From an uncultured Lachnospiraceae bacterium (lineage in GTDB: Bacteria; Bacillota; Clostridia; Lachnospirales; Lachnospiraceae), in the NCBI GenBank assembly GCA_934351765.1, contig CAKRJM010000037.1:1-13287 (forward strand): a DNA stretch of 13,287 nt, read 5' to 3'. Each line of letters opens with the position of its first letter. Positions within the stretch are counted from its first letter, which is position 1. Made by a program: the position numbers and the translations under genes. The notes beneath the pieces are model-generated. The model was not told the DNA's origin and made no database searches. It saw nothing but the letters and a program-made list of their open reading frames with translations. This document shows positions 1 through 13,287 of the stretch, piece after piece.

Positions 1-942
1 AGAGCCGAATTCTATGATTATGCAGCGCAAAGCTATATCCCGATATGTGGGAAGGCGAATTGCCGGCATCAGTATATAGATGAAACCTGTACGGCTGTTT
101 GGTTAGAAAGAGGAGGGTGTGTCGGGAGAATCGGAGATAAATGGTATTATCATTGTGATTCCTTTTTTAGCTGTGATCTGGACGGAAGTAATGAGAAAGA
201 ACTTGGGGAGTTTCATCATATGCTATCTCCACTGGGAGTAAGGATTTTTCGCGATAATTCTATTATCTGTGCAACGTATGATATTGATTTTGATGAAGAG
301 ACAGAGGAGCCGCTGGACAGCAGTGCGATCTATCGATTCCATTTTGATACAGGAGAAACCGAGATAATCTGTCCGGAAATCCAATCAGATCTTCCGGTGT
401 ATGAAGTAGTTGGGCTTTACGAGAATCAATTGATTTATCGGGAATGGACGAGAGAGTACGGGAAGCGCACAAAGATGATCGATCTTGATTCCAGAACGAT
501 TACAGAACCAATCGGAACGGTTGAATCGGCCAGAGATATGGTCATAGAAGGGGATTCTTTAATTACGACTGTAGCAGACGGGGGAGACTTTTCGGTGGCT
601 GAATTCAATTTAAAGACGGGAGAGCAGAGAACCCTGCTGGGAAAATTGAAGGATGGGGTAAATGTTTATTGGGGAGCTGAATTAAAGCAGCTTCAGACCA
701 TTGAAACCAGGGGCTTCCGTGATTGGCATATGGAAACCTATCAATACCAGGAGGACAAAGGCTGTGCCCTTTTTCGGGAAGGGGATGTATATCATGAAAT
801 GGAAGTTCTTATGGTAAAGAATGGACAGGTGATCGGAAGAATCGGTGATCCCGGCGATGAAGACGTGATGTTTGATCTTGTAGTGATCAGTCTGGAGGAT
901 TACCTGGCGGGAAAAACCAACTGGAAACTATTAGAGTATTAA
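1..942 (+). CDS. Propeller-type lipoprotein with CCHC signature (5'-truncated by window edge)
   Basis: The reading frame is open from the first base to the TAA at 940-942 and encodes 313 residues. The in-frame ATG at 220 is internal: the residues before it (RAEFYDY, then C16-x4-C21-x-H23-x6-C30) align with residues 53-82 of the protein at 3625-4740. About 52 residues, including the signal peptide, therefore lie outside the window. The protein consists of repeated short units such as 'YRFHFDTGETEIICP', 'VYEVVGLYENQLIYREW' and 'VYWGAELKQLQT', which suggest a beta-propeller. It ends with EDYLAGKTNWKLLEY. The closest relative in the window is 3625-4740, with long stretches of identical DNA near the 3' end. 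By analogy it is a surface-anchored lipoprotein of unknown function. The CCHC residues could bind metal or form disulfides; this is inference. Confidence 0.9.
   Translation, partial: RAEFYDYAAQSYIPICGKANCRHQYIDETCTAVWLERGGCVGRIGDKWYYHCDSFFSCDLDGSNEKELGEFHHMLSPLGVRIFRDNSIICATYDIDFDEETEEPLDSSAIYRFHFDTGETEIICPEIQSDLPVYEVVGLYENQLIYREWTREYGKRTKMIDLDSRTITEPIGTVESARDMVIEGDSLITTVADGGDFSVAEFNLKTGEQRTLLGKLKDGVNVYWGAELKQLQTIETRGFRDWHMETYQYQEDKGCALFREGDVYHEMEVLMVKNGQVIGRIGDPGDEDVMFDLVVISLEDYLAGKTNWKLLEY
769..819 (+). repeat. 51-bp identical block, copy A (pair with 4567-4617)
   Basis: These 51 bases inside the propeller gene, encoding LFREGDVYHEMEVLMVK, match 4567-4617 with no difference, silent sites included. 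The sequence on either side differs at many silent sites. It lies in the same 3798-base register as the larger repeat at 910-1017. The patchy identity points to gene conversion between the two paralogs. Confidence 0.9.
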
Positions 943-1017
943 AAGAAAGGGATGAAACGATAGCTTTGAAATCATTCAGGCTATTATAACGGACGAGGAG
1001 GGCAGGGCATGAAGAAA
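910..1017 (+). repeat. 108-bp identical block spanning gene junction, copy A (pair with 4708-4815)
   Basis: By eye these 108 bases are identical to 4708-4815. The block covers the last codons of the propeller gene, the full 66-base intergenic region with its AGGAGGG ribosome site, and the first three codons of the next gene. Similarity continues with three substitutions (at 1018, 1033 and 1063) to about 1074, just past the lipobox cysteine codon at 1069-1071. After that the two downstream genes are unrelated. Confidence 0.93.
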
Positions 1018-2478
1018 GCGATCATAAAATTGCTGGCGGGTTTGCTGGCGGTTAGTCTGCTGTCGGGCTGCGGCGCGGGTGTTTCACAGAAAACGCCTGA
1101 AAAGCAGATATTGAAATGGGCGCTTTCTAACATGAACTATGATATGACACCGTATGAAGAGGTTTTGAATGAAAAGCTGGAGGAAAAGGGATTTCCTTAT
1201 GAGATTCAGTTTGAATCCATTCAGACGACTTCCGGTGATGATACGGAATCATATGTAATGGCGTATATTGACCAATTGGGGAGTGGAAATTATGACATAG
1301 TGAGCTGTCCGGGAACGGAGAATGGCTATGATTATTATGAGATTCTGGCGGAGCGGGGGAATCTGGCACCATGGGAAGATTGGCTGGAACAGACCGAAGC
1401 GGGGAAAAAGCTGAAAGAATCTTATCCGGAAATTGTTTGGGACACGCTCCGGTATCAGGATCACATTTACGGGGCGGCAACACCAAAAACCGACTGGCGG
1501 TTTTACGCCGTGTTTCAGCAGGAGTATGCGGAACAGTATGGACTGGAGCTTCATAATGTTACGTTTGATGATATGGAGCAACTTCTGGAATGTGGTCTGA
1601 AGGAAAAGGAAGCACAGGAAGATTTTGTGGTATCCTTTGGCTGGCCGTATTATTTGCAGAATGGATATGAATATACGAAATGTCAGCTGGTCTGTGCAGA
1701 TACGAAACAGGAGACGGTTCGTGCAGAGTCCATTTTGGAAAATGAAGAATATCAGAACCATGTCAGGAAGCTGTATCGGTGGAAGCAGAGGGGAATGTAT
1801 GATCCGGAGCCGCCAGCAACTCAGATCCAGAAGGGAAATTTTTTGGCAGCAGGATTGTATTCCTATGGAAAAGAGGGCGCAGAAGCGCTGCTTCGCGCAC
1901 AATATCATATTCCGGAAAATGTGAAATTACAGGCAGTAGAGTTGCCGGAGTTTCAAATGCCGATGGCGAAAAAGGGACGACAGACCGCAGTGTGGGGGAA
2001 AAGTGATAATCAGGACAGTGCATTTCAAGTAATAGCGGCAATCTATTCGGATCGGGAACTGACAGATGCGCTGGTATACGGAAAGGAAAATGAGGATTAC
2101 CAGATTGAGGACGGAAAAGTGGTGCTGCTCAATGACAGCGGTTATTTCGGAATTTATCGGAGTAAAACGTTCGGTAATCCTTATATAAAAACTCCTGGGG
2201 AAATGGATTCAGTATCCATGGGAAAGGAACTTTGGGAGGAAGCGGAACAGGCAAAGCTGTCAAAACAGATCGGAATCCACTGGGACGATTCAGAATTGAA
2301 CCGGGTAATCAGTACGATCAATACAGAATTTATGGCAGACGGAACATTTCTGCTTTCCGGAACAGGAATAGATTATGAGGAGGAGCTGAAGGAATTAGAG
2401 AAGGAGATGGAGGCACTTGGACTTTCAATGGTTACAGAGCGTATGGATCAGATTTTCAGAAAGGAGACCGGCGTATGA
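1009..2478 (+). CDS. Extracellular solute-binding-protein-like lipoprotein
   Basis: A 489-residue protein with a lipoprotein signal peptide: KK at residues 2-3, a hydrophobic core at 5-19, and lipobox LSGC with Cys21 as the lipidation site. The start is supported by AGGAGGG at 996-1002, six bases before the ATG. The mature part resembles large ABC-transporter solute-binding proteins. A strand-like segment ILKWALS (34-40) is followed by a helix and the strand YEIQFESI. A 'gLaPwedwle...lkesYPEIvWdtlryqdhIYGaatp' block lies at about residues 118-159. The family normally delivers sugars or peptides to a permease, but none is encoded here. It overlaps the following propeller gene by 4 nt (ATGA), which suggests translational coupling. 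Its signal peptide and leader are almost identical to those of the unrelated gene at 4807. Ligand unknown. Confidence 0.9.
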   Translation: MKKAIIKLLAGLLAVSLLSGCGAGVSQKTPEKQILKWALSNMNYDMTPYEEVLNEKLEEKGFPYEIQFESIQTTSGDDTESYVMAYIDQLGSGNYDIVSCPGTENGYDYYEILAERGNLAPWEDWLEQTEAGKKLKESYPEIVWDTLRYQDHIYGAATPKTDWRFYAVFQQEYAEQYGLELHNVTFDDMEQLLECGLKEKEAQEDFVVSFGWPYYLQNGYEYTKCQLVCADTKQETVRAESILENEEYQNHVRKLYRWKQRGMYDPEPPATQIQKGNFLAAGLYSYGKEGAEALLRAQYHIPENVKLQAVELPEFQMPMAKKGRQTAVWGKSDNQDSAFQVIAAIYSDRELTDALVYGKENEDYQIEDGKVVLLNDSGYFGIYRSKTFGNPYIKTPGEMDSVSMGKELWEEAEQAKLSKQIGIHWDDSELNRVISTINTEFMADGTFLLSGTGIDYEEELKELEKEMEALGLSMVTERMDQIFRKETGV

Positions 2479-3608
2479 AAAAAGGGTTAATTATGGGACT
2501 GTTCTGTATCATGATTTTCTGTATGGCGGGCTGCGGATCTTCTGATTCAGGGGAAACAAAACAGCAGGAAATAAAAGGCACAGGTTTAAAATCGGTCGAT
2601 TCTATCTGGGAAGTAAATCTCTGCCGGATGAAGGATGGCATTTTGTATAATAATCCTGATGGCTCATATCTGGGATATTTTGATTATGGAACAGGTGCAT
2701 ATCTGCCGTTTTGCGCAAAAGCAAATTGCCGGCATGACAATCAGAAATGCCAGGCAGTTCGTTTACATAAACAGATTGTTGTTATGGGAGCAGACGAGGA
2801 GTCGGTTTATTATCTGTTTCAAGATGATAACGGAAATAATACCTTTTACCGATGTGACCGGACCGGGGAGAATGAAACGCGGATCGGGGAATTCCCTCAT
2901 TTTGCGGAGGGCTGGGGAGCGAATCAGGCAATTGTCCGAGATAAAACGCTTATCATGGCAACAAATGATGATCAGTGGGATGAAAAAACGAACGAGTGGA
3001 AAGCGGCGACAAGCGGGATCTTTCAATACGATCTGAAAACCGGAAAAGCAGAAGCACTTTGTGAGGAAAAACAGTATCAAGTATTTGGGGATGGATATCA
3101 GGTACTTGGGATCCATGACAATGATCTGATTTATGCAGAAGAAACGACTGAGAAAAAAGAAATTTGGAAAATGGATCTGGATTCCAGGGAGAAAACAAAG
3201 CTTTTGGAAGGATGGTATGGCTCGCTGCTGTGGCTGGCGGACGGAGCCGTGATCCGGACCATAGAAGAGGACGGCCTGAAGCCATTGGTCGTGTATGATC
3301 TGGAAAGCGGGAAAGAGACAAAGCCTGAGGGATTGGATGGAATCAACCAGGTATTGTGGGAAAAGGAACTCAAGCTTGCGTATTATGGCGAAGGTTATAA
3401 AAAAGACTTCCGGTATAAAATCTATCAATGCGATGAAAACGGAGAAAGTCATCTGATCCGTCAGGGAGAGGAGGAAAATTTATTTTATCCGAAATATCAG
3501 GAGGGAGATCTTCTGATCGGACAGGCGGGAGAAAACTGGGATCTGGCGTATATGAAAAAGGAAGATTTTCTGGCAGGGAAAAATAACTGGACGGTGATAG
3601 AAGAGTAA
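2475..3608 (+). CDS. Propeller-type lipoprotein with CCHC signature, SBP-coupled type
   Basis: A 377-residue lipoprotein. The signal peptide runs over residues 1-19 with lipobox MAGC, Cys20. An AAGGAG ribosome site at 2461-2466 lies inside the end of the upstream gene, and the ATG overlaps that gene's TGA. The CCHC signature is C80-x4-C85-x-H87-x4-C92, the short-spacing form also found at 8425-9576. Propeller-like units follow ('TFYRCDRTGENETRIGEFP', 'IFQYDLKTGKAEALCE', 'IWKMDLDSREKTKLLEG', 'LVVYDLESGKETKPEG'). The C-terminus EDFLAGKNNWTVIEE is a variant of the array's EDYLAGKxNW motif. It is probably anchored on the outer face of the membrane and made together with the SBP-like protein encoded just upstream. 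The biochemical role is not recognised. Confidence 0.9.
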   Translation: MKKGLIMGLFCIMIFCMAGCGSSDSGETKQQEIKGTGLKSVDSIWEVNLCRMKDGILYNNPDGSYLGYFDYGTGAYLPFCAKANCRHDNQKCQAVRLHKQIVVMGADEESVYYLFQDDNGNNTFYRCDRTGENETRIGEFPHFAEGWGANQAIVRDKTLIMATNDDQWDEKTNEWKAATSGIFQYDLKTGKAEALCEEKQYQVFGDGYQVLGIHDNDLIYAEETTEKKEIWKMDLDSREKTKLLEGWYGSLLWLADGAVIRTIEEDGLKPLVVYDLESGKETKPEGLDGINQVLWEKELKLAYYGEGYKKDFRYKIYQCDENGESHLIRQGEEENLFYPKYQEGDLLIGQAGENWDLAYMKKEDFLAGKNNWTVIEE

Positions 3609-3624
3609 TTACAGGGGAGACCGT

Positions 3625-4740
3625 GTGAAGAAAATAGGAATATATGTATGGTGTATTATTTTGATAATAGTTTTAAATGGCTGTGGTCAGAAAAGAATGA
3701 CTGGTCAGTTCGGTTCAATACAAAAATATAATTACACTTATACTGCTGATGGATTGTTATATTGTAATCCACGTACCGGAAAAGCGGAATTTTATGATTA
3801 TGAATCAAAGAAATATTTCCCGTTGTGCGGGAAGGCAAACTGCCGGCATCAGGATAAAGATTTAAATTGTACTGCGGTTAAGCTGGCACGGAATGGATGG
3901 ATCGGGAGAGGGGAAGATAAGTGGTACTATCAGCTTGATGGAGATAATGGCGAAAGGGCTTTTTATTCCTGTGATCTGGATGGAACCAATGAAAGGAAAA
4001 TAGGAGAATTTCCATATAGGATTGATAGTGATGGAATTACTATTTGCCAAAGTGATTCCATAATTTTCACTTCATGGGATCTCGTATATGAGGAGAAAAC
4101 GGACGAAACATATTTTGCCAGTGGAATTTATCGTTTTCGGCTTGATTCCGGAAAGGCGGAGGAAATCTGCCCCCAAATTCAAGAAGAACTTCCGGTTTAT
4201 GAAATCATTGGAAATTATGAAAATAAACTAATCTACAGAGAATGGACAGGAAAAATCGGTAAAAAAACAAAAATGATTGATTTAGACAGTAAGGAGATAA
4301 CGGAGCCAATCGGAGAGAAAGAGACTTTTGGAGATATGGTTATTGACGGTAATTATCTGATTGGTACAGTTGTGGAGGCGCAGGGGTGCACCGTAACAGC
4401 GTTTGATCTGCAGAATGGAAGCAGCAGGGAAATATTGGGCGGATTAACGAATAATCCGAAGATTTATTGGGGAGAAGCGTTAAAGCAGATCCAAACCGCA
4501 GAAACATCGGAATTTCGGGATTGGCATAAGGAAACTTATCAGTATCAGGAAAATAAGGGGTGTACTCTTTTTCGGGAAGGGGATGTATATCATGAAATGG
4601 AAGTTCTTATGGTAAAGGATGGAATAGTAATTGGATACGTTGGAGACATTGGGGATGAAGAAGAGCAGTTTCATCTTGCAATTATCAACTTGGAAGATTA
4701 CCTAGCAGGAAAAACCAACTGGAAACTATTAGAGTATTAA
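3625..4740 (+). CDS. Propeller-type lipoprotein with CCHC signature
   Basis: A 371-residue lipoprotein starting at a GTG codon. AGGGGAG at 3613-3619 is spaced five bases from it, and no suitable ATG gives a signal peptide. The signal peptide ends in lipobox LNGC, Cys20. The signature is C68-x4-C73-x-H75-x6-C82, after an 'EFYDYESKKYFPLC' lead-in. Typical repeated units are 'AFYSCDLDGTNERKIGEF', 'IYRFRLDSGKAEEICP', 'KTKMIDLDSKEITEP' and 'VTAFDLQNGSSREILGG'. The C-terminus is EDYLAGKTNWKLLEY. It follows the previous gene by 16 bases, so it probably shares its transcript. It is the nearest paralog of the truncated gene at 1-942, and the two share perfectly identical DNA patches at their 3' ends. 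Function unknown. Confidence 0.91.
   Translation: MKKIGIYVWCIILIIVLNGCGQKRMTGQFGSIQKYNYTYTADGLLYCNPRTGKAEFYDYESKKYFPLCGKANCRHQDKDLNCTAVKLARNGWIGRGEDKWYYQLDGDNGERAFYSCDLDGTNERKIGEFPYRIDSDGITICQSDSIIFTSWDLVYEEKTDETYFASGIYRFRLDSGKAEEICPQIQEELPVYEIIGNYENKLIYREWTGKIGKKTKMIDLDSKEITEPIGEKETFGDMVIDGNYLIGTVVEAQGCTVTAFDLQNGSSREILGGLTNNPKIYWGEALKQIQTAETSEFRDWHKETYQYQENKGCTLFREGDVYHEMEVLMVKDGIVIGYVGDIGDEEEQFHLAIINLEDYLAGKTNWKLLEY
4567..4617 (+). repeat. 51-bp identical block, copy B (pair with 769-819)
   Basis: Second copy of the 51-base tract encoding LFREGDVYHEMEVLMVK, in the 3' part of the 3625-4740 gene. It is identical to 769-819, while the bases between this block and the one starting at 4708 have diverged. 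Confidence 0.9.
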
Positions 4741-4815
4741 AAGAAAGGGATGAAACGATAGCTTTGAAATCATTCAGGCTATTATAACGGACGAGGAGGG
4801 CAGGGCATGAAGAAA
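4708..4815 (+). repeat. 108-bp identical block spanning gene junction, copy B (pair with 910-1017)
   Basis: Second copy of the tract that joins a propeller gene to the next lipoprotein gene. It includes the 3' end of 3625-4740, an identical 66-base intergenic region and ATG-AAG-AAA of the gene at 4807. Offset from copy A is exactly 3798 bases throughout. Confidence 0.93.
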
Positions 4816-5490
4816 ACGATCATAAAATTGTTGGCGGGTTTGCTGGCGGTTAGTCTGCTGGCGGGCTGCGGCAAAGCGGTAAAAACGGAAGAAAAGAAGG
4901 AGGTTTCTGAAAAGCTGGTTGATGTCTGCGAACATTTTTTTGAGACCTCAAAGGGAGAGTATCGGGCGATTGATAAGGATGGAAAGGATATAACGGATGA
5001 CTTTTATGAACAGTATCAGTCGGCTTATACGGAAAAGGATTATGAAACCATAGCGGATGCAGCGGCGAATGATCTGAAATATATCAAGTGGACGGAGCAG
5101 ACAGAGGATCAGGAGAAGTCCTCTGAGCTGACAGCCAGAACGATAACAGGGGATTTTTATGTAATGGGGCAGGCAAAGGAGCTGTTTAAAGGAAAGTCCT
5201 TTGATATGGTTTTCAGCATAACCGGAGAATTTCAATTCTTAAAGGAAACCGGAGAGGTTCAGGAATATGGGGATTCGATGTTCTCTGTGGAATATTTCAA
5301 TGCAGGAACAGGGATCACTTATATGGCACAGGATGTGTCCACCGAAGCCAGAAAAAATGCGGACGGCCAGGTGGAGTTCTCCGCTGATTTCAGTGTGAAG
5401 CTGTCCGGGCAGAATGAGAAAGGCGATGTAGGGGAGGAAATCGCAGGGCCGTATCATGGGGAAGCCCTGGGAGAGGGAGAAAAGAAATAA
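4807..5490 (+). CDS. Lipoprotein of unknown family (227 aa)
   Basis: A 227-residue lipoprotein with lipobox LAGC, Cys21, and a good AGGAGGG site six bases upstream. The signal peptide is almost the same as that of the 1009-2478 gene (three base differences from 1009 to the cysteine codon), but the mature chain is unrelated and much shorter. After the cysteine comes a Lys/Glu-rich linker (22-36), then a mostly helical, charged segment (about 37-110). A probably beta-rich C-terminal half follows, with alternating hydrophobic residues such as 'FDMVFSITGEFQFL', 'SMFSVEYFNAGTGITYMAQ' and 'VEFSADFSVKLSG'. It lacks the CCHC signature and the EDYLAGK motif. I do not recognise the family. It sits 24 bases before the next SBP-like gene and may belong to that unit. 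Confidence 0.85.
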   Translation: MKKTIIKLLAGLLAVSLLAGCGKAVKTEEKKEVSEKLVDVCEHFFETSKGEYRAIDKDGKDITDDFYEQYQSAYTEKDYETIADAAANDLKYIKWTEQTEDQEKSSELTARTITGDFYVMGQAKELFKGKSFDMVFSITGEFQFLKETGEVQEYGDSMFSVEYFNAGTGITYMAQDVSTEARKNADGQVEFSADFSVKLSGQNEKGDVGEEIAGPYHGEALGEGEKK

Positions 5491-5514
5491 AAATTTTATA
5501 TGGGAGGCGGCAGG

Positions 5515-6975
5515 ATGAAGAAAACACAGATCAGTATGATGATACTTATGCTTCTGGCGGTGCTGTTGGCAGGCTGCGGAGCACAATCTTCGAAAGAGTC
5601 TGCCGTCTCCCATATTGTATGGGGAGTTTTTACCAATCAGGAGGATTCGTTCCCGGAGGAATGGCAGAACGGATTTAATGAACTGCTGAAGGCGAAAGGC
5701 ATTTCGGCGGAGGTGGAGTTCTGTCCGGTGATTGTTGACCGGAGGGCGGAGGGGCTTCCGATCGGGAGCTATCAGGAATATGGAGAATTGTTTGCAGAGC
5801 GAGTGGACGGGTGCGACCTGTTTACAGATCTTGGTGTTTTTGGATTTTATCAATATTATGGAAATTTTATTCGAAAAGGGTTGTATGAACCGCTGACACC
5901 ATATCTGGAAACGGAAACGGGAACGGCGCTTCGGGAAAGTTATCCGGAGATTTTCTGGGAGGCGATGAAAGCGAACGGAACGATTTATGGTGTTCCATCG
6001 CGGTATGGGATTTATGACCGTTCCTACGGGGTACTGCGAAAGGACGCCGCAGATGCCTATGGGCTGACAGAAGAAGATTCGATCGGAGATCTGGAGCTTC
6101 TGGAGCTGGCAAAGCGGTTTTCGGAGGAGCAGGGGATTCTGTATCAGGTTCCGGGTGGAGAGCTGATCCTCCCAGAAGAATTTGAAACCATGTGGGAGAG
6201 TGATCTTCTGGCAGCATGGAACAACGGAGAGGAGTTTCAGGTGGATTCCATGATGGAAAATCCGGTGATTCAGGAGCGGATTGAGGCGTATGACAGTTAT
6301 GAGAAAGAGGATTACTGGAAGTACAGATTCGATCCGGCAAGGAATCAGCTTTTTGGGACGTATGTGCGCTCCTACAGTCCGGAGGCGGCTGTTCGGACGG
6401 TATGTGAAATGTATGGTACAGATCCAGAAGAGTATCTTGCAGTGAAGCATCGGGATCTGCCGTTTCGGCAAAGAGGCACAGTGACTGGGATCTGGTCCGG
6501 ATCGAAGGAAAAGAAAGCTGCATTCTCGGTCCTGCAGGCGGCCTTCAGTGATCCGGAGATTGCAGAATATCTGGCATATGGACAGGAAGGAAGAGAATAT
6601 CGGAGAGAGAATGGATTTATTGTGACGGTGCGGCCGGTAACGGAAAACAGTCAGATCGATACCAGGTGTATGACAAATCATCTGCTGCTGACACCGGAAG
6701 CGGGGGAGGATGAATCAAAACAGACCGTTTTAAGGGACTATTATGAACAGTGTCAGAAATCCATATTATGTGGAGTATGGTTTGATTATAACGCATACAA
6801 GACAGAAATAAAAGAAATGAGCCGGGTTGTCAGTGAAAACGGATGGTTTTTGGGAGCGGCAGCGGATGGAAAAGGAATAAAGGAAAGCCTGGTACAGATG
6901 AAAGAACAGCTTTCTGATATCAATCTGAAGGGACTGGAGCAGGAGTTTTCCGGACAGCTGCGGGAACAGAAGTGA
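5515..6975 (+). CDS. Extracellular solute-binding-protein-like lipoprotein
   Basis: A 486-residue SBP-like lipoprotein. An in-frame ATG occurs at 5500, but 5515 is the better start: GGGAGG at 5502-5507 would be its ribosome site, and the product begins MKKTQ with lipobox LAGC, Cys21, matching the paralogs. The mature protein starts with the strand IVWGVFT and the block EDSFPEEWQNGFNELLKAKG (about 43-62). A central 'KGLYEPLTPYLE...LRESYPEIFWEAM...IYGVPSRYG' region lies at about 121-165. The next gene has all of these blocks, so the two form a tandem duplicate pair; the SBP at 1009 is more distant. The gap to the next gene is 10 bases. No transporter membrane subunit is encoded in the window. 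Ligand unknown. Confidence 0.9.
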   Translation: MKKTQISMMILMLLAVLLAGCGAQSSKESAVSHIVWGVFTNQEDSFPEEWQNGFNELLKAKGISAEVEFCPVIVDRRAEGLPIGSYQEYGELFAERVDGCDLFTDLGVFGFYQYYGNFIRKGLYEPLTPYLETETGTALRESYPEIFWEAMKANGTIYGVPSRYGIYDRSYGVLRKDAADAYGLTEEDSIGDLELLELAKRFSEEQGILYQVPGGELILPEEFETMWESDLLAAWNNGEEFQVDSMMENPVIQERIEAYDSYEKEDYWKYRFDPARNQLFGTYVRSYSPEAAVRTVCEMYGTDPEEYLAVKHRDLPFRQRGTVTGIWSGSKEKKAAFSVLQAAFSDPEIAEYLAYGQEGREYRRENGFIVTVRPVTENSQIDTRCMTNHLLLTPEAGEDESKQTVLRDYYEQCQKSILCGVWFDYNAYKTEIKEMSRVVSENGWFLGAAADGKGIKESLVQMKEQLSDINLKGLEQEFSGQLREQK

Positions 6976-6985
6976 GGAGGTACGC

Positions 6986-8446
6986 ATGAAAAAACGGCTG
7001 ATGACAGGGATACTGTTTCTGGGAGTTATGTTCGGAATAGCTGGATGTGGGGAGAAAGAGAAGGAGCCGGTTTCTCTGACCTGGAGTGTGTTTGCGGACT
7101 GTGAGGATTCTTTTCCAAAAGAGTGGCAGGATGGATTTAATGCGCTTTTAAAGGAAAAGGGAATCTGTGCAGAGGTGCAGTTTCAGGCGGTTTCGGTTGA
7201 CTGGCAGGCAGCGGGGGAGGAATCCTTCGGAACCATCTGCAGAAACGGATTTGCCGGGCAGACGAAGCAGAGCGATATTCTTACGGATTTCGGGCGAACA
7301 GAGGATGTGTGGTGTTATCCGGATTATATTCGGAACGGAATCTATGAAGATCTGACTCCGTTTATGGAAACAGCAGACGGGAAGAAACTGAAAGAGGCAT
7401 ATCCAGAGGCCATCTGGGAAACGGTTCGATATGAAAGGAAAATTTATGGGATTCCCAGCTTTGGTGAGCTTACTTTTTCCGAGTATTTTGTGATGAAGAA
7501 AACAATGGCCGAAGCTCTTGGAATTTCGGATAAAACAGAATTACCAAAATCGGAGCTTCTTGCGTTGGCAGAAGTATATTCGGAGAAGAATGGCAGAGTG
7601 TATAAGATTCAGTACGGATCACTGACTGCACCGGAGGGATATGAAGTGATTCCTGGGGCGTCCTGGTTTTTAGCCGGAAAGATGAATGGAAACTATGAAG
7701 TCAGTCTGCGACTGGACAATCCGGCGTATCTTCAGATGTTAAAGGAATATCAGTCGTATCATGAAAAGGGAATATGGGACGGGATCAGCCTTACGGATCC
7801 AAATCTGTTCGGGTACAGCGTCGGAAGTTACAGTGCGGAAACCGCAATGCAGGCTGCTTCGGCAGAAATGGGATTAGATCCGGATCAGTATCAGGTTTTT
7901 CATGTGGAGGATTATCCGCTGTTCCTTTCCGGAAATACAACCGGTATTCACAGATCGTCGGAACATCAGGAGGAAGCTTTTCAGGTTCTGGCGGCGGCTT
8001 TTTCCGATGAGGAGCTTGTAAATTATCTGGTTTACGGAAGAGAGGGAATAGAATATCATCTGGAAAACAGAAAAGCGGTGGTCGATCGGGGAATTACAGA
8101 ATCGGGCGGTGTGACAACAAAAAGCATGAGCAATCATATTTTGTGTCTACCGTCTGAACGAGAGACCGAGCAGAAACGGGAAATCCTGATGGCATATTAT
8201 GATACACTTCCGAAATCCATCTTTCTGGATCGCTGGATCGATACCGCTCCTGTGCAGGAGGAAACTGCAAAACTGCAGAAGGCGTATGGATATGAGGAAT
8301 GGCAGGATGGATTGACGGATGACCTGGAGCGCGATATTCAGGAAGTAAGAGAACGGATTTCCGGCACAGAAACGGAAACAATCCGAAAGCTGCTGGAAAG
8401 TCAGCTGAACGAGCAGGAGGAGACATGGGAAGACGGAAACAAATAA
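6986..8446 (+). CDS. Extracellular solute-binding-protein-like lipoprotein
   Basis: A 486-residue SBP-like lipoprotein. GAGGAGG at 6974-6980 overlaps the TGA of the upstream gene and is five bases from the ATG. Lipobox IAGC, Cys21. It parallels the 5515-6975 protein along its length: EDSFPKEWQDGFNALLKEKG at about 40-59, 'NGIYEDLTPFME...LKEAYPEAIWETV...IYGIPSFG' at about 117-160, and a later 'VNYLVYGREGIEY' block matching 'AEYLAYGQEGREY'. The C-terminus is extended by a charged, probably helical tail (DDLERDIQEVRERI and onward). Its 3' end overlaps the following propeller gene by 22 bases, with that gene's AGGAGG inside this coding sequence, so the two are probably translationally coupled. Confidence 0.9.
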   Translation: MKKRLMTGILFLGVMFGIAGCGEKEKEPVSLTWSVFADCEDSFPKEWQDGFNALLKEKGICAEVQFQAVSVDWQAAGEESFGTICRNGFAGQTKQSDILTDFGRTEDVWCYPDYIRNGIYEDLTPFMETADGKKLKEAYPEAIWETVRYERKIYGIPSFGELTFSEYFVMKKTMAEALGISDKTELPKSELLALAEVYSEKNGRVYKIQYGSLTAPEGYEVIPGASWFLAGKMNGNYEVSLRLDNPAYLQMLKEYQSYHEKGIWDGISLTDPNLFGYSVGSYSAETAMQAASAEMGLDPDQYQVFHVEDYPLFLSGNTTGIHRSSEHQEEAFQVLAAAFSDEELVNYLVYGREGIEYHLENRKAVVDRGITESGGVTTKSMSNHILCLPSERETEQKREILMAYYDTLPKSIFLDRWIDTAPVQEETAKLQKAYGYEEWQDGLTDDLERDIQEVRERISGTETETIRKLLESQLNEQEETWEDGNK

Positions 8447-9576
8447 CAGCAATGATTCTGGCCGCGGTATTCCTGATCAGTGGATGCGGAGGCGCAAAGC
8501 AGACGGTTCGGACATCCGAAAAAACGGAGAAAGATGGAATCCGGTCAAATGGTTTTTCTTGTGTGACCGATTATGGTGTACTGTTCTGTGGAAATACCGA
8601 TATGCTGTACCTGTATGATTATGGTGCAAAGGAAGCGGTGCCGTTCTGTGCCCGTCCCAATTGTCGTCATGATTCACGGGACTGTACGGCAAAGCTGTTT
8701 GAAGATCGGGCAATCCTTCCGGTCCTTTACGAAAACGGGCTGTACTATATGAAGCTGAACGGGAGCGCGGACGCATGGGAATATTGCAGGGCGGATCAGA
8801 ACGGGGAAAACGAGAAAGTGCTGGCAGAGGTATCCTATGATGTGATCAATCCGCTGAATGCCATTTTATATCATGGAAAAGCTTATATGATCGGAGAACG
8901 GGCCACGGTTCAGGAGGATGGCCATTACGATGGGAGCAATGACGTGTTTTCGGTGGATCTGCAGACCGGGGAAACAGAAACGATACTGACGCAGACCTTT
9001 GGAACGGATGGCATTGCATTGATTAATTTCGAGCATGCAGAAAACGGAACAGCATATCTTTATCTGTACGGAAGAAACATAACAGAAGGATTTTCCGACG
9101 GATATTATGCGCTGGACATGGAAACGAAGAGCATTACCCGGCTGGAAAATGAGGAAAACAGTTCTGCCGGTGCCTGGGGAGACGGAAGGATGATATACAG
9201 CCGGATCAATGGCGCGCAGGAGAATGGATTCTGGAGCTATCGGCTGGATAACGGAGAAACGGAAAAGCTGTGTTCCTGCGAAAATCCGGGGCGGGGGCTG
9301 ATGATGAAGGATGGATTTTTACACAGAGTCTGTGATTCCGAATATAAAACCGGACGCTGGCATTTCTATGAATGGGACACCGGGGAAGACCGGGAACTTC
9401 AGAAATCTGATACAGAGGAAGATTTTTTAACAGAGCTTGCCGTTGAGGCAGACGGAGAGGAGCTTCTGATCGGATGGTATGGGGAAGGAGAGGCGGAAGG
9501 GCATTATCTGATCCCTGCGAAAGCATTTATGGACGGATCAAGAGACTTTCAGTTTTTGTGTACGGTGAATCAGTAG
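8425..9576 (+). CDS. Propeller-type lipoprotein with CCHC signature, divergent SBP-coupled type
   Basis: A 383-residue lipoprotein. Signal peptide MGRRKQITAM with lipobox ISGC, Cys21, and AGGAGG at 8415-8420 within the end of the upstream gene. The signature is C75-x4-C80-x-H82-x4-C87 with Pro-Asn before the second cysteine. Repeats such as 'VFSVDLQTGETETIL', 'YYALDMETKSITRLE' and 'FWSYRLDNGETEKLC' support a propeller. It is the most divergent member of its family here: the C-terminal EDYLAGKxNW motif is replaced by 'AKAFMDGSRDFQFLC'. Like 2475-3608 it overlaps an upstream SBP-like gene and has the short H-x4-C spacing, so the two probably form a subfamily with a common job. Function unknown. 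Confidence 0.9.
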   Translation: MGRRKQITAMILAAVFLISGCGGAKQTVRTSEKTEKDGIRSNGFSCVTDYGVLFCGNTDMLYLYDYGAKEAVPFCARPNCRHDSRDCTAKLFEDRAILPVLYENGLYYMKLNGSADAWEYCRADQNGENEKVLAEVSYDVINPLNAILYHGKAYMIGERATVQEDGHYDGSNDVFSVDLQTGETETILTQTFGTDGIALINFEHAENGTAYLYLYGRNITEGFSDGYYALDMETKSITRLENEENSSAGAWGDGRMIYSRINGAQENGFWSYRLDNGETEKLCSCENPGRGLMMKDGFLHRVCDSEYKTGRWHFYEWDTGEDRELQKSDTEEDFLTELAVEADGEELLIGWYGEGEAEGHYLIPAKAFMDGSRDFQFLCTVNQ

Positions 9577-9642
9577 GTGCTGGGATTGGAAGAGGGAAAG
9601 AGTCAGTAAAGATCGGCCTGAGAATGACAGGGGAGGAATTGC

Positions 9643-10791
9643 ATGAAGAAACGTCTATGGATTTTATTGTACGGTTTATTGGCCTTTTTGCTCGCGGCGG
9701 GAGGCTGCGGGAAAACGGATAAGTCAAAAAATGGCAGTGCGGCAGACGGGATTGAGTCGATAAAATGGGATAACTGGACATATTTTGATGAAGGGATTGT
9801 ATATTCCAATCCAATGACCAGACGGGCAGAATATTATGACTATGAAACGAAGCATTATATGCCGCTTTGTGTAAGGGCAAACTGTCGTCATCTGCCAAAT
9901 GATGAAAACTGTATGGCAGTTCGACTGACAATGAATTCAATGGTTGGAAAAAGCGGGGATTCATGGCTGTACCTGGCCGACAATGGTGTGGGGAGATCCT
10001 TTATGCAGTGTGATCTGGATGGGGCAAATGAAAAAGAAGTAGTGGAATTTGATCATTTGATTGAAAATCGTGGCTGTATTTTTACAGATGATTCCATTAT
10101 CGTGGCAACATGGGAAGTGGAAATGGATGAAGAGGGTGAAGACTGTGTTTATGTATGCGGAATCTATCGGATCAAGATTAAAACCGGTGAAGTGGAGACC
10201 ATATGCCCGGCAACAAAAGAAAAAATTCCCAGATATCTTCTTGCCGGGGTATATGAAAACAAACTGGTTTATCGGGAGTGGACAGAGGCAGGAATGACAA
10301 TCCGAATGGTTGATATGGAAAACGGTGAAGAATCAAAGCCGTTGGGTGATCGGGAAATTGGCTGGAATGACTGCATTGTAGCCGGGGAAGAACTGATTTG
10401 TACAGAACAACTGGAGAATCATAATGAAATCCTGTCCCATGCGCTGGTCGTTAATTTAAAAACCGGAGAAATCAGGCAGATCATGGATTTTGGACAGGTC
10501 GATGTAGGACCGAAGATTTACTGGGGAGAGAAGGAAAAATTCCTTCGAGTCACAAAAAAAGAAGGGGGAAAAAGCTATGCGATAACGTATCGCTATCAGG
10601 AGGAAACCGGCTGTCAGTTTCTGCGAGAGGGATTGTGGTGTGAGGAACTGGAGGTTCTTTCCGTAAAGGACGGTACGGTGATCGGAAGAGTCGGGGATAT
10701 AGGAGATGAGACACTGATGTTTGATATGGCAACGATCAGTCTGGAGGATTATCTGGCTGGGAAGAGTAACTGGGAGATGTTGGAATATTAG
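9643..10791 (+). CDS. Propeller-type lipoprotein with CCHC signature
   Basis: A 382-residue protein. GGGAGG at 9631-9636 lies six bases before the ATG. The signal peptide ends AAGGC with Cys22. The lipobox is less canonical than in its neighbours, with Ala in place of the usual Leu at -3, but lipidation is still likely. The signature is C76-x4-C81-x-H83-x6-C90 after 'EYYDYETKHYMPLC'. Propeller-like units include 'SFMQCDLDGANEKEVVEF', 'IYRIKIKTGEVETICP' and 'ALVVNLKTGEIRQI'. The YREW and KIYWGE motifs are shared with 1-942 and 3625-4740. The C-terminus is EDYLAGKSNWEMLEY. It is separated from the gene upstream by 66 bases with no clear terminator. Function unknown. Confidence 0.9.
   Translation: MKKRLWILLYGLLAFLLAAGGCGKTDKSKNGSAADGIESIKWDNWTYFDEGIVYSNPMTRRAEYYDYETKHYMPLCVRANCRHLPNDENCMAVRLTMNSMVGKSGDSWLYLADNGVGRSFMQCDLDGANEKEVVEFDHLIENRGCIFTDDSIIVATWEVEMDEEGEDCVYVCGIYRIKIKTGEVETICPATKEKIPRYLLAGVYENKLVYREWTEAGMTIRMVDMENGEESKPLGDREIGWNDCIVAGEELICTEQLENHNEILSHALVVNLKTGEIRQIMDFGQVDVGPKIYWGEKEKFLRVTKKEGGKSYAITYRYQEETGCQFLREGLWCEELEVLSVKDGTVIGRVGDIGDETLMFDMATISLEDYLAGKSNWEMLEY
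10726..10773 (+). repeat. 48-bp near-identical 3'-end block (pair with 11973-12020)
   Basis: This block encodes MATISLEDYLAGKSNW and differs from 11973-12020 at a single base (10756, Ala versus Thr codon). The rest of the two genes is clearly more diverged, so this stretch is either under strong constraint or was recently exchanged. Confidence 0.85.
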
Positions 10792-10901
10792 AAGCAAGTG
10801 AATTTGTATGCGGAAAAGTTATTCGGAAAATCATGACCGGTTAAAAATAATATCTGGGATTGGAAATCGACTAAGTGCTGAAAAATAGAAAAGGGTGCTG
10901 T

Positions 10902-12038
10902 ATGAAAAAATATTGGAGAACAGGTCTTTTGGGTGTAGCGGCAGCTCTGATTGCTTTAAGTGGATGCGGGGAAAAGACATCGGTATCGGAAAGCAGGGAA
11001 CGGGATTCCTGGGGGTTTTTGAACTGGACATTTACAGCAGATGGTGTTCTTTACCGCAATCCGAATCCGCCGCAGAATGGAAAGGCGGAATATTATGATG
11101 CCCTGTCGCAAAGTTATTTTCCCCTGTGCGGCAGAGCAAATTGTCTCCATAAGGATGATACCTGCAGTGCAGTTCATCTGAATAAGGCGGAGCTTCTGGG
11201 GCAGTGCGGGGATCGCTGGTATTATCTGATGAACGAGGAGGATGGCAGCCTGGCGTTTTACAGCTGCGGTATGGATGGAAGCGGAGAAAAGAGGGAAGGG
11301 GATTTCCCTCATAATAATTATGGTTCAGTCGGAACGCGGGCGCTGTACACAGATCATTCTTGTGTATATACAGCGGAGGATGTGGATCTGGGAACGGAGC
11401 AGCCGGTGGGGGAATGGTATTCGGAGCACTGGAACAGCGGGATTTATCAGTATCAGTTTGATACGAAGACAGAACAGGTACTCGTTCCGGCAGAAGTGGA
11501 TGTTCATATGGAACTGATTGGAAAATATGAAGACAAATTGTTGTATCGGCAGTCAGATGAGAATTCCAGTGTGATGGGAATGCTGGATCTGGGAACAAAG
11601 GAGATCAGTCATCCCATGGGTAAGCGGTTCCTGACACCGGTAAACAGTTTCCATGACGGGCTTTTGGCAGGCAATCTTCTGGAAAATGATACACGAAGCA
11701 TCGTGGAGTTTAATCTGGAAACAGGAGAAGTGAATGAAATCCGGACAGGATTGGAGCAGGGCGCGAGGCTGTACTGGAGCCGTGATCTGAAGCTGATCAC
11801 AGAAGCGGAAAAATCGGACAGTGGGATCAAATATCGAACATATCAGTATGGCGCGGATGGAAAGCAAAAACTGATCCGGGAGGATGAAGAGGGAAATTGT
11901 CTGGAGGTTATGGCAGTAAACAATGGTATGATTTATGGCGAACTGGACTTGGATGGAGAAACGGTATTCAAAATGGCAACGATCAGTCTGGAGGATTATC
12001 TGACTGGGAAGAGTAACTGGACGGTGCTGGAGTATTAA
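10902..12038 (+). CDS. Propeller-type lipoprotein with CCHC signature
   Basis: A 378-residue lipoprotein. A GTG at 10875 is in frame, but the ATG at 10902 gives the family-typical MKK start and a proper signal peptide with lipobox LSGC, Cys22. The ribosome site is modest (AAGGG at 10891-10895), weaker than at the other genes. The signature is C76-x4-C81-x-H83-x4-C88, with Leu instead of Arg between the second cysteine and the histidine. Units such as 'AFYSCGMDGSGEKREGDFP', 'IYQYQFDTKTEQVLVP' and 'IVEFNLETGEVNEI' fit a propeller. The C-terminus is EDYLTGKSNWTVLEY. The gene has the longest upstream gap in the lipoprotein array (110 bases), so it could have its own promoter, though none is obvious. 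Seventy-seven bases of it (11664-11740) recur exactly at the window's end. Confidence 0.9.
   Translation: MKKYWRTGLLGVAAALIALSGCGEKTSVSESRERDSWGFLNWTFTADGVLYRNPNPPQNGKAEYYDALSQSYFPLCGRANCLHKDDTCSAVHLNKAELLGQCGDRWYYLMNEEDGSLAFYSCGMDGSGEKREGDFPHNNYGSVGTRALYTDHSCVYTAEDVDLGTEQPVGEWYSEHWNSGIYQYQFDTKTEQVLVPAEVDVHMELIGKYEDKLLYRQSDENSSVMGMLDLGTKEISHPMGKRFLTPVNSFHDGLLAGNLLENDTRSIVEFNLETGEVNEIRTGLEQGARLYWSRDLKLITEAEKSDSGIKYRTYQYGADGKQKLIREDEEGNCLEVMAVNNGMIYGELDLDGETVFKMATISLEDYLTGKSNWTVLEY
11664..11740 (+). repeat. 77-bp repeat, internal copy (pair with 13211-13287)
   Basis: This internal segment of the propeller gene 10902-12038 is identical to the last 77 bases of the window, 1547 bases away. The match starts abruptly (T at 11663 against A at 13210) and runs to the last base of the window. 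Confidence 0.95.
11973..12020 (+). repeat. 48-bp near-identical 3'-end block (pair with 10726-10773)
   Basis: Second copy of the 3'-end block, encoding MATISLEDYLTGKSNW, with one base difference from 10726-10773. The corresponding part of 1-942 is also similar at the DNA level. Confidence 0.85.
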
Positions 12039-12050
12039 AAATTTCCAGTC

Positions 12051-13210: not shown

Positions 13211-13287
13211 TTGGCAGGCAATCTTCTGGAAAATGATACACGAAGCATCGTGGAGTTTAATCTGGAAACAGGAGAAGTGAATGAAAT
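13211..13287 (+). pseudogene. Terminal fragment identical to part of the 10902-12038 propeller gene
   Basis: The last 77 bases repeat 11664-11740 exactly and continue off the window. The coding frame is kept, and an ATG at 13190 in that frame would add seven residues (MRNYDSQ) in front of LAGNLLENDTRSIVEF, but no convincing ribosome site precedes it. It could be the start of a 1547-base tandem duplication or a gene fragment left by recombination. It could also be an assembly-graph overlap: 77 is a common final k-mer length in short-read assembly, and the match begins abruptly. A functional gene is unlikely, because the signal peptide and the N-terminal half are absent. Confidence 0.55.

Follow-up and report, generated by a model that had tools for sequence, protein, structure and literature searches.

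Two lipoprotein genes of unrelated families, within a 13,287-bp stretch of DNA from an uncultured Lachnospiraceae bacterium (the whole of which we call the window), carry almost the same leader, and the match between them stops at the lipobox. The shared part is an operon junction with a ribosome-binding site (RBS): the tail of the upstream gene, the spacer and the signal peptide of the next gene. Mosaics of this kind, with the seam just past the lipobox, recur in a related MAG (G004) and among the protein records of other assemblies. We consider it likely that gene conversion between junctions within a lipoprotein array produced them, and that the conserved lipobox serves as the seam.

Results

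The lipoprotein gene array

All genes of the array lie on the same strand (+), and its lipoprotein genes comprise six propeller-like genes, three SBP-like genes and one gene for a protein of 227 residues. At the left end is a propeller-like lipoprotein gene truncated by the window start (1-942), whose 3′ end falls within the first copy of the leader. It is followed by the gene for an SBP-like lipoprotein of 489 residues (1009-2478), a propeller-like gene (2475-3608), a propeller-like lipoprotein gene with a GTG start whose 3′ end falls within the second copy of the leader (3625-4740), the 227-residue lipoprotein gene (4807-5490), two further SBP-like genes (5500-6975 and 6986-8446) and three propeller-like genes (8425-9576, 9643-10791 and 10875-12038). 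The closest relatives found for the window's bacterium are Lachnospiraceae MAGs.

A profile of the first SBP's family matched solved solute-binding proteins at E 1.7e-17, and the three SBP-like proteins of the window are related to one another (35% and 25% identity). The 227-residue protein belongs to no known family: it matched no Pfam family at E 0.1 and has a single homologous cluster, P0001. Its predicted structure, for which there were two input sequences, has a mean pLDDT of 53.8. The label 'propeller' is our reading of weak DUF5050 matches below the Pfam cut-off and of one weak TolB match. All six propeller-like proteins (window 1-12038) share invariant P-x-C-x3-N-C-x-H residues near the mature start, a possible metal or disulfide site. 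Moreover, two adjacent propeller-like genes have a 68-bp 3′ end in common (10726-10793 and 11973-12040, 90% identity) that stops just past the stop codon; this is another shared junction piece.

A shared tract that ends at the lipobox

The first-pass annotation of this DNA had reported that the 108 bases at 910-1017 are identical to those at 4708-4815, and we reproduced this identity. It comprises 33 bp of upstream CDS (910-942), a 66-bp spacer (943-1008) that contains the RBS, and the initial 9 bp of the gene that follows, which is the SBP-like gene for the first copy and the 227-residue gene for the second (both on the + strand). Over the rest of the signal peptide, 54 of 57 bases agree between 1018-1074 and 4816-4872, the three differences falling in signal peptide codons 4, 9 and 19. 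In total, 162 of 165 bases match between 910-1074 and 4708-4872. The next codon differs at all three of its bases, and the match thus ends one codon (3 bp) past the lipobox Cys codon, so that the break does lie at the lipoprotein processing site, where the annotation had placed it. Comparison within the window found no similarity downstream of 1074/4872, and so no downstream homology block. The claim that one leader precedes two unrelated mature lipoproteins was likewise upheld, since the mature SBP and the mature 227-residue protein show no similarity (best BLASTP E 0.23) and a profile comparison of the two proteins aligned only positions 1-26, the signal peptide. Five of nine lipoprotein genes of the window contain the short conserved lipobox DNA GGCTGCGG.

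The homology extends far upstream of the leaders. Both follow paralogous propeller-like genes, 1-942 and 3625-4740, which have 60% amino acid identity and a 1097-bp DNA alignment at 69.6%. An alignment of 3-1074 with 3783-4872 has 1072 gap-free columns, 69.9% of them identical, and the identity of the upstream paralogues over the 906 columns before the tract is 64.8%. The longest identical runs in this alignment measure 108, 51 and 29 bases. The second of these, a perfect tract shared by the upstream paralogues (769-819 and 4567-4617, + strand), is the longest in the background part. In 20,000 shuffles of the columns of the whole alignment the longest run had a mean of 17 and never exceeded 47, and shuffles of the background part gave runs of 34 at most. 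Thus, the conserved blocks of 108 and 51 bp in a diverged background exceed chance. Because these runs in a 64.8% background beat all shuffles, the leader was copied much later than the upstream genes diverged.

Constraint does act on signal peptides and RBS regions, and one could suppose that function, whether as a regulatory RNA or in export, has kept the two leaders alike with no recent copying. We give this reading next to no credence. Other lipoproteins of the window carry unlike leaders, the fold of the leader RNA is at chance (z 0.04 against shuffles), and in 11 relatives only the propeller-tail part of the leader region was matched, over 54 bp at most. Moreover, the identity covers a noncoding spacer, and selection at the protein level alone is therefore insufficient as an explanation.

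The annotation had also described the leader as an expression cassette, and in this it has to be corrected: scanning 910-1074 and 4708-4872 with a consensus revealed no sigma-70-like promoter, and the left end of the segment lies within the upstream gene. By eye, TTGACA-N17-TACAAT can be seen upstream of the SBP gene L029:5137 in G004 and of gene L040:1020 in a second MAG, G006. Judging from these motifs, the promoters of such arrays may lie before the first genes rather than within the exchanged leader.

An assembler that merged strains or paralogues at a repeat could also have created a mosaic. The 108-bp repeat could let it swap flanks, and the final 77 bp of the window (13211-13287) exactly repeat 11664-11740 and look, by their length and end position, like an assembler k-mer overlap, for which reason the sequence near the window end calls for caution. 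As the source of the shared leader, however, such an artefact is extremely unlikely. The signal peptide before the 227-residue gene has three substitutions of its own; little is common past the seam, so that a join at 4872 would lie outside any misleading shared stretch; and G004, an unrelated assembly, shows the same pattern.

Leaders and mature proteins in other assemblies

We compared the window's proteins with three protein records. P0001 represents a cluster of 71 sequences, of which the window's 227-residue protein could itself be a member. From the Cys onwards P0001 is identical to that protein at 206 of 207 residues, and its signal peptide differs (MRKGILAVGTGLLLGMLMLAG in P0001, MKKTIIKLLAGLLAVSLLAG in the window); this is the sole allele-like pair. 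P0002 matches the window SBP at 483 of 489 residues, with six differing. P0003 has its first 22 residues identical to those of P0002, and the whole proteins are 39% identical. At the level of protein records, these comparisons give one leader with three mature proteins (those of the window, P0002 and P0003) and one mature protein with two leaders. The outcome that would have spoken against the first-pass annotation, an old and fixed duplication in which the leader always precedes the same cargo, is not what the other assemblies' protein records and the related MAG show. With the first 40 residues of the SBP as a query, two clusters (P0002 and P0003) were found at E 10 among only 24 candidates, and further cargo types may therefore have been missed.

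Relatives of the SBP occur at E 0.001 in eight of the 11 genomes in the genus of L001's genome. At E 1e-40, three genomes in a draw of 397 from the family had an SBP match, all of them among this 11-genome genus set. The 227-residue protein had no match in six genomes, an exact 37-base leader pattern had none in the genome contig set, and no viral contig contained a relative of any query (SBP, 227 or propeller).

Different assemblies thus hold alternative combinations of leader and mature protein, as would be expected of programmed switching, in which a dedicated system, like those of surface-antigen variation, exchanges several mature cassettes behind a constant leader at a high rate. We regard such a system as very unlikely here. 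The window has no inverted copy of the leader (of its five inverted pairs measuring 25 nt or more, none lies there), and invertible, shufflon-like lipoprotein loci have inverted repeats at the site of exchange. Neither silent cassettes nor a single expression site were found in the window; its mature genes are all open frames with starts of their own, both leader-bearing genes have a start and an RBS within one array, and there is no homology downstream of the seam.

Shared leaders in a related MAG

The pattern recurs in G004. Three propeller genes of this MAG, L029:1376 (-), L029:227 (-) and L077:1042 (+), carry signal peptide DNA that is identical over all 57 bp, while the propeller gene L029:2507 (-) and the SBP gene L029:5137 (-) have 53 of 57 signal peptide bases in common. 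In the pairs 1376/227, 1376/1042 and 2507/5137 the similarity reaches 6 bp beyond the Cys codon and ends there. The propeller proteins of the first two pairs are 48% (over 42 residues) and 33% identical, respectively. In the pair 2507/5137 only about 30 bp are common upstream of the start, without a long left anchor. A DNA search of G004 with one leader found five copies, four on contig C58 and one on C57. The end of one contig and the start of the other have exactly the same 127 bp, and the two therefore probably form one array.

The G004 genes 1376 and 227 are counterparts of two neighbouring genes of G006, 1020 (72% over 356 residues) and 2168 (70% over 56), respectively. The signal peptides of 1020 and 2168 differ from each other, matching at 35 of 57 bases, and the identity of the leaders in G004 therefore seems to postdate the split of the two lineages. 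The counterpart of G004 gene 2507 (81% amino acid identity) lies downstream of the type-2 gene in G006 and upstream of the type-1 gene in G004; gene order has thus changed too, which speaks against a simple picture. This third propeller of the G006 array (L040:3235-4260) seems to be without a signal peptide.

In G006 itself the 88 bp before L040:1020 (921-1008) match the tail of propeller 2168 and the spacer behind it (3192-3279) at 93% identity. This stretch encodes a propeller tail with no preceding propeller; it may represent either a junction segment that was copied or what is left of a lost gene. Since it stops 11 bp short of the start codon, it is not an exchange of a signal peptide.

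These two MAGs bear on the first-pass proposal that cargo is exchanged behind a constant leader. In such a scheme the leader stays and the mature genes are replaced, as would happen if a propeller-leader-SBP unit were duplicated and a later deletion between two lipoboxes fused the leader to the 227 CDS. The end product would be the same mosaic; P0002, P0003 and the window do combine one leader with three mature proteins, and the differing array order of G004 and G006 indicates that genes do move. However, the leaders match at 162 of 165 bases although the upstream propellers are only 65% identical, which rules out that the entire unit was duplicated recently, and the type-1 and type-2 neighbours are still adjacent in both MAGs while their leaders differ between the genomes. 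One part of the proposal, that the leader stands before different mature proteins, holds. The other part is not supported, as the comparison of G004 with G006 suggests instead a spread of the leader onto genes that remained neighbours, albeit with a change of order around them. Transfer of the leader fits better than exchange of cargo, which we consider unlikely.

Further genes accompany the related arrays. Two long frames of G004, L029:10375-12897 (-) and L029:5265-7757 (-), each contain one propeller-like and one SBP-like match, the order being reversed between the two frames, and this arrangement suggests that the two families may work together. At L029:12915-14664 (-), L091:3365-5111 (+) and L077:2160-8469 (+), related arrays adjoin genes for a BlaI-like repressor and a BlaR1-like M56 peptidase, after which come an ABC transporter ATPase gene and a weak HlyD-like gene. 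With such neighbours, the arrays are possibly a sensed and regulated envelope operon.

How common leader sharing is

Leader sharing was found in two of nine assemblies, the window's and G004, and G006 has a junction tract only, which stops short of the start codon. Called-gene pairs and a screen of BLAST hits found no sharing in G001, G002, G003, G005, G008 and G009. A motif rule called 50 lipoprotein genes in the regions retrieved, of which 38 were kept once duplicates and members of families other than propeller, SBP and 227 had been dropped; the rule misses genes, including that at 3625 in the window and two in L091, and the 38-gene set has none from G003. When the 60 bp up to and including the Cys codon were compared, an identity of at least 75% was seen in 5 of 91 within-genome pairs, four of them with unlike mature starts (32-45%) and one with like starts (75%). 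Between genomes the same threshold was reached by 2 of 612 pairs, in both of which the mature starts are alike (83-85%). The four informative pairs do not amount to four independent events, for two of them are propeller-propeller pairs with one gene in common, and only two join different families. The BLAST-hit screen was limited to hits of at least 80% identity and at least 40 bp, a filter that hides even the window's leader, which lies within the longer 69.6% alignment. Leaders buried in longer alignments would therefore be missed in other genomes, and the pairwise count covers called genes only.

Discussion

We infer gene conversion as the process behind these mosaics. In the mechanism proposed here, recombination would copy one junction over another, taking with it the 3′ end of a propeller gene, the RBS-containing spacer and the signal peptide of the following gene. 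The left anchor would be the homology of related propeller genes, and the right anchor only the short conserved lipobox DNA. Microhomology and selection together would set the seam. A tract that ended at the lipobox would preserve the reading frame, the lipidation site and the mature protein. As a seam at this position is harmless to all three, recombinants could persist even where the families joined are unrelated. The 227-residue gene of the window was probably the receiver of a leader of the SBP lineage, because two SBP records carry the leader and P0001 has the 227-residue protein with another. Gene conversion would account at once for old paralogues, recent identical tracts and intact mature proteins.

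Recombination through conserved blocks in tandem genes is already known. The tandem immunity paralogues esaG and tipC of Firmicutes are described as undergoing homologous recombination through conserved blocks, which in tipC lie at the 5′ and 3′ ends of the gene (PMC9484751). The window likewise has tandem related genes, six propeller-like and three SBP-like, with conserved blocks. As described there, however, esaG and tipC are paralogous over their full length, whereas the seam in the window joins unrelated mature families, at the lipobox. In the tandem lipoprotein cluster lpl of Staphylococcus aureus a conserved part has been proposed to permit gene shuffling (PMC4470592). The window resembles it in having tandem lipoprotein genes with a conserved part, but in the cited account that of lpl is an intragenic core with variable ends, while that of the window consists of 3′ tail, spacer and signal peptide, with unrelated mature parts. 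In the vmp system of Borrelia hermsii, a shared block of 61-62 bp, reaching 26 bp into the CDS, serves lipoprotein gene conversion (PMC6011951). Here too a homology block, 910-1074, spans the gene start. As reported there, the vmp system comprises a single expression site, silent copies and a homology sequence downstream; we found none of these in the window. What sets the window apart is the seam at the lipobox and the exchange between unrelated families; a literature search at the level of titles and abstract openings found no description of natural signal peptide exchange at the lipobox.

More tentatively, and with less than even confidence, we suggest that the lipobox is a recurrent recombination seam, that tags or junctions circulate among unrelated lipoproteins in the population, and that strains may differ in the leader from which a given surface protein is translated and exported while gene content stays constant. 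Leader transfer of this kind would be a possible route by which bacteria pass the signals for translation and export from one surface protein to another, unrelated one, leaving the mature part untouched, with the processing site as the safe place to join them. If this is general, the histories of signal peptides and of the proteins behind them would disagree in a predictable way, and differences between strains in the expression of surface proteins could stem from short conversion tracts that are invisible to comparisons of gene content.
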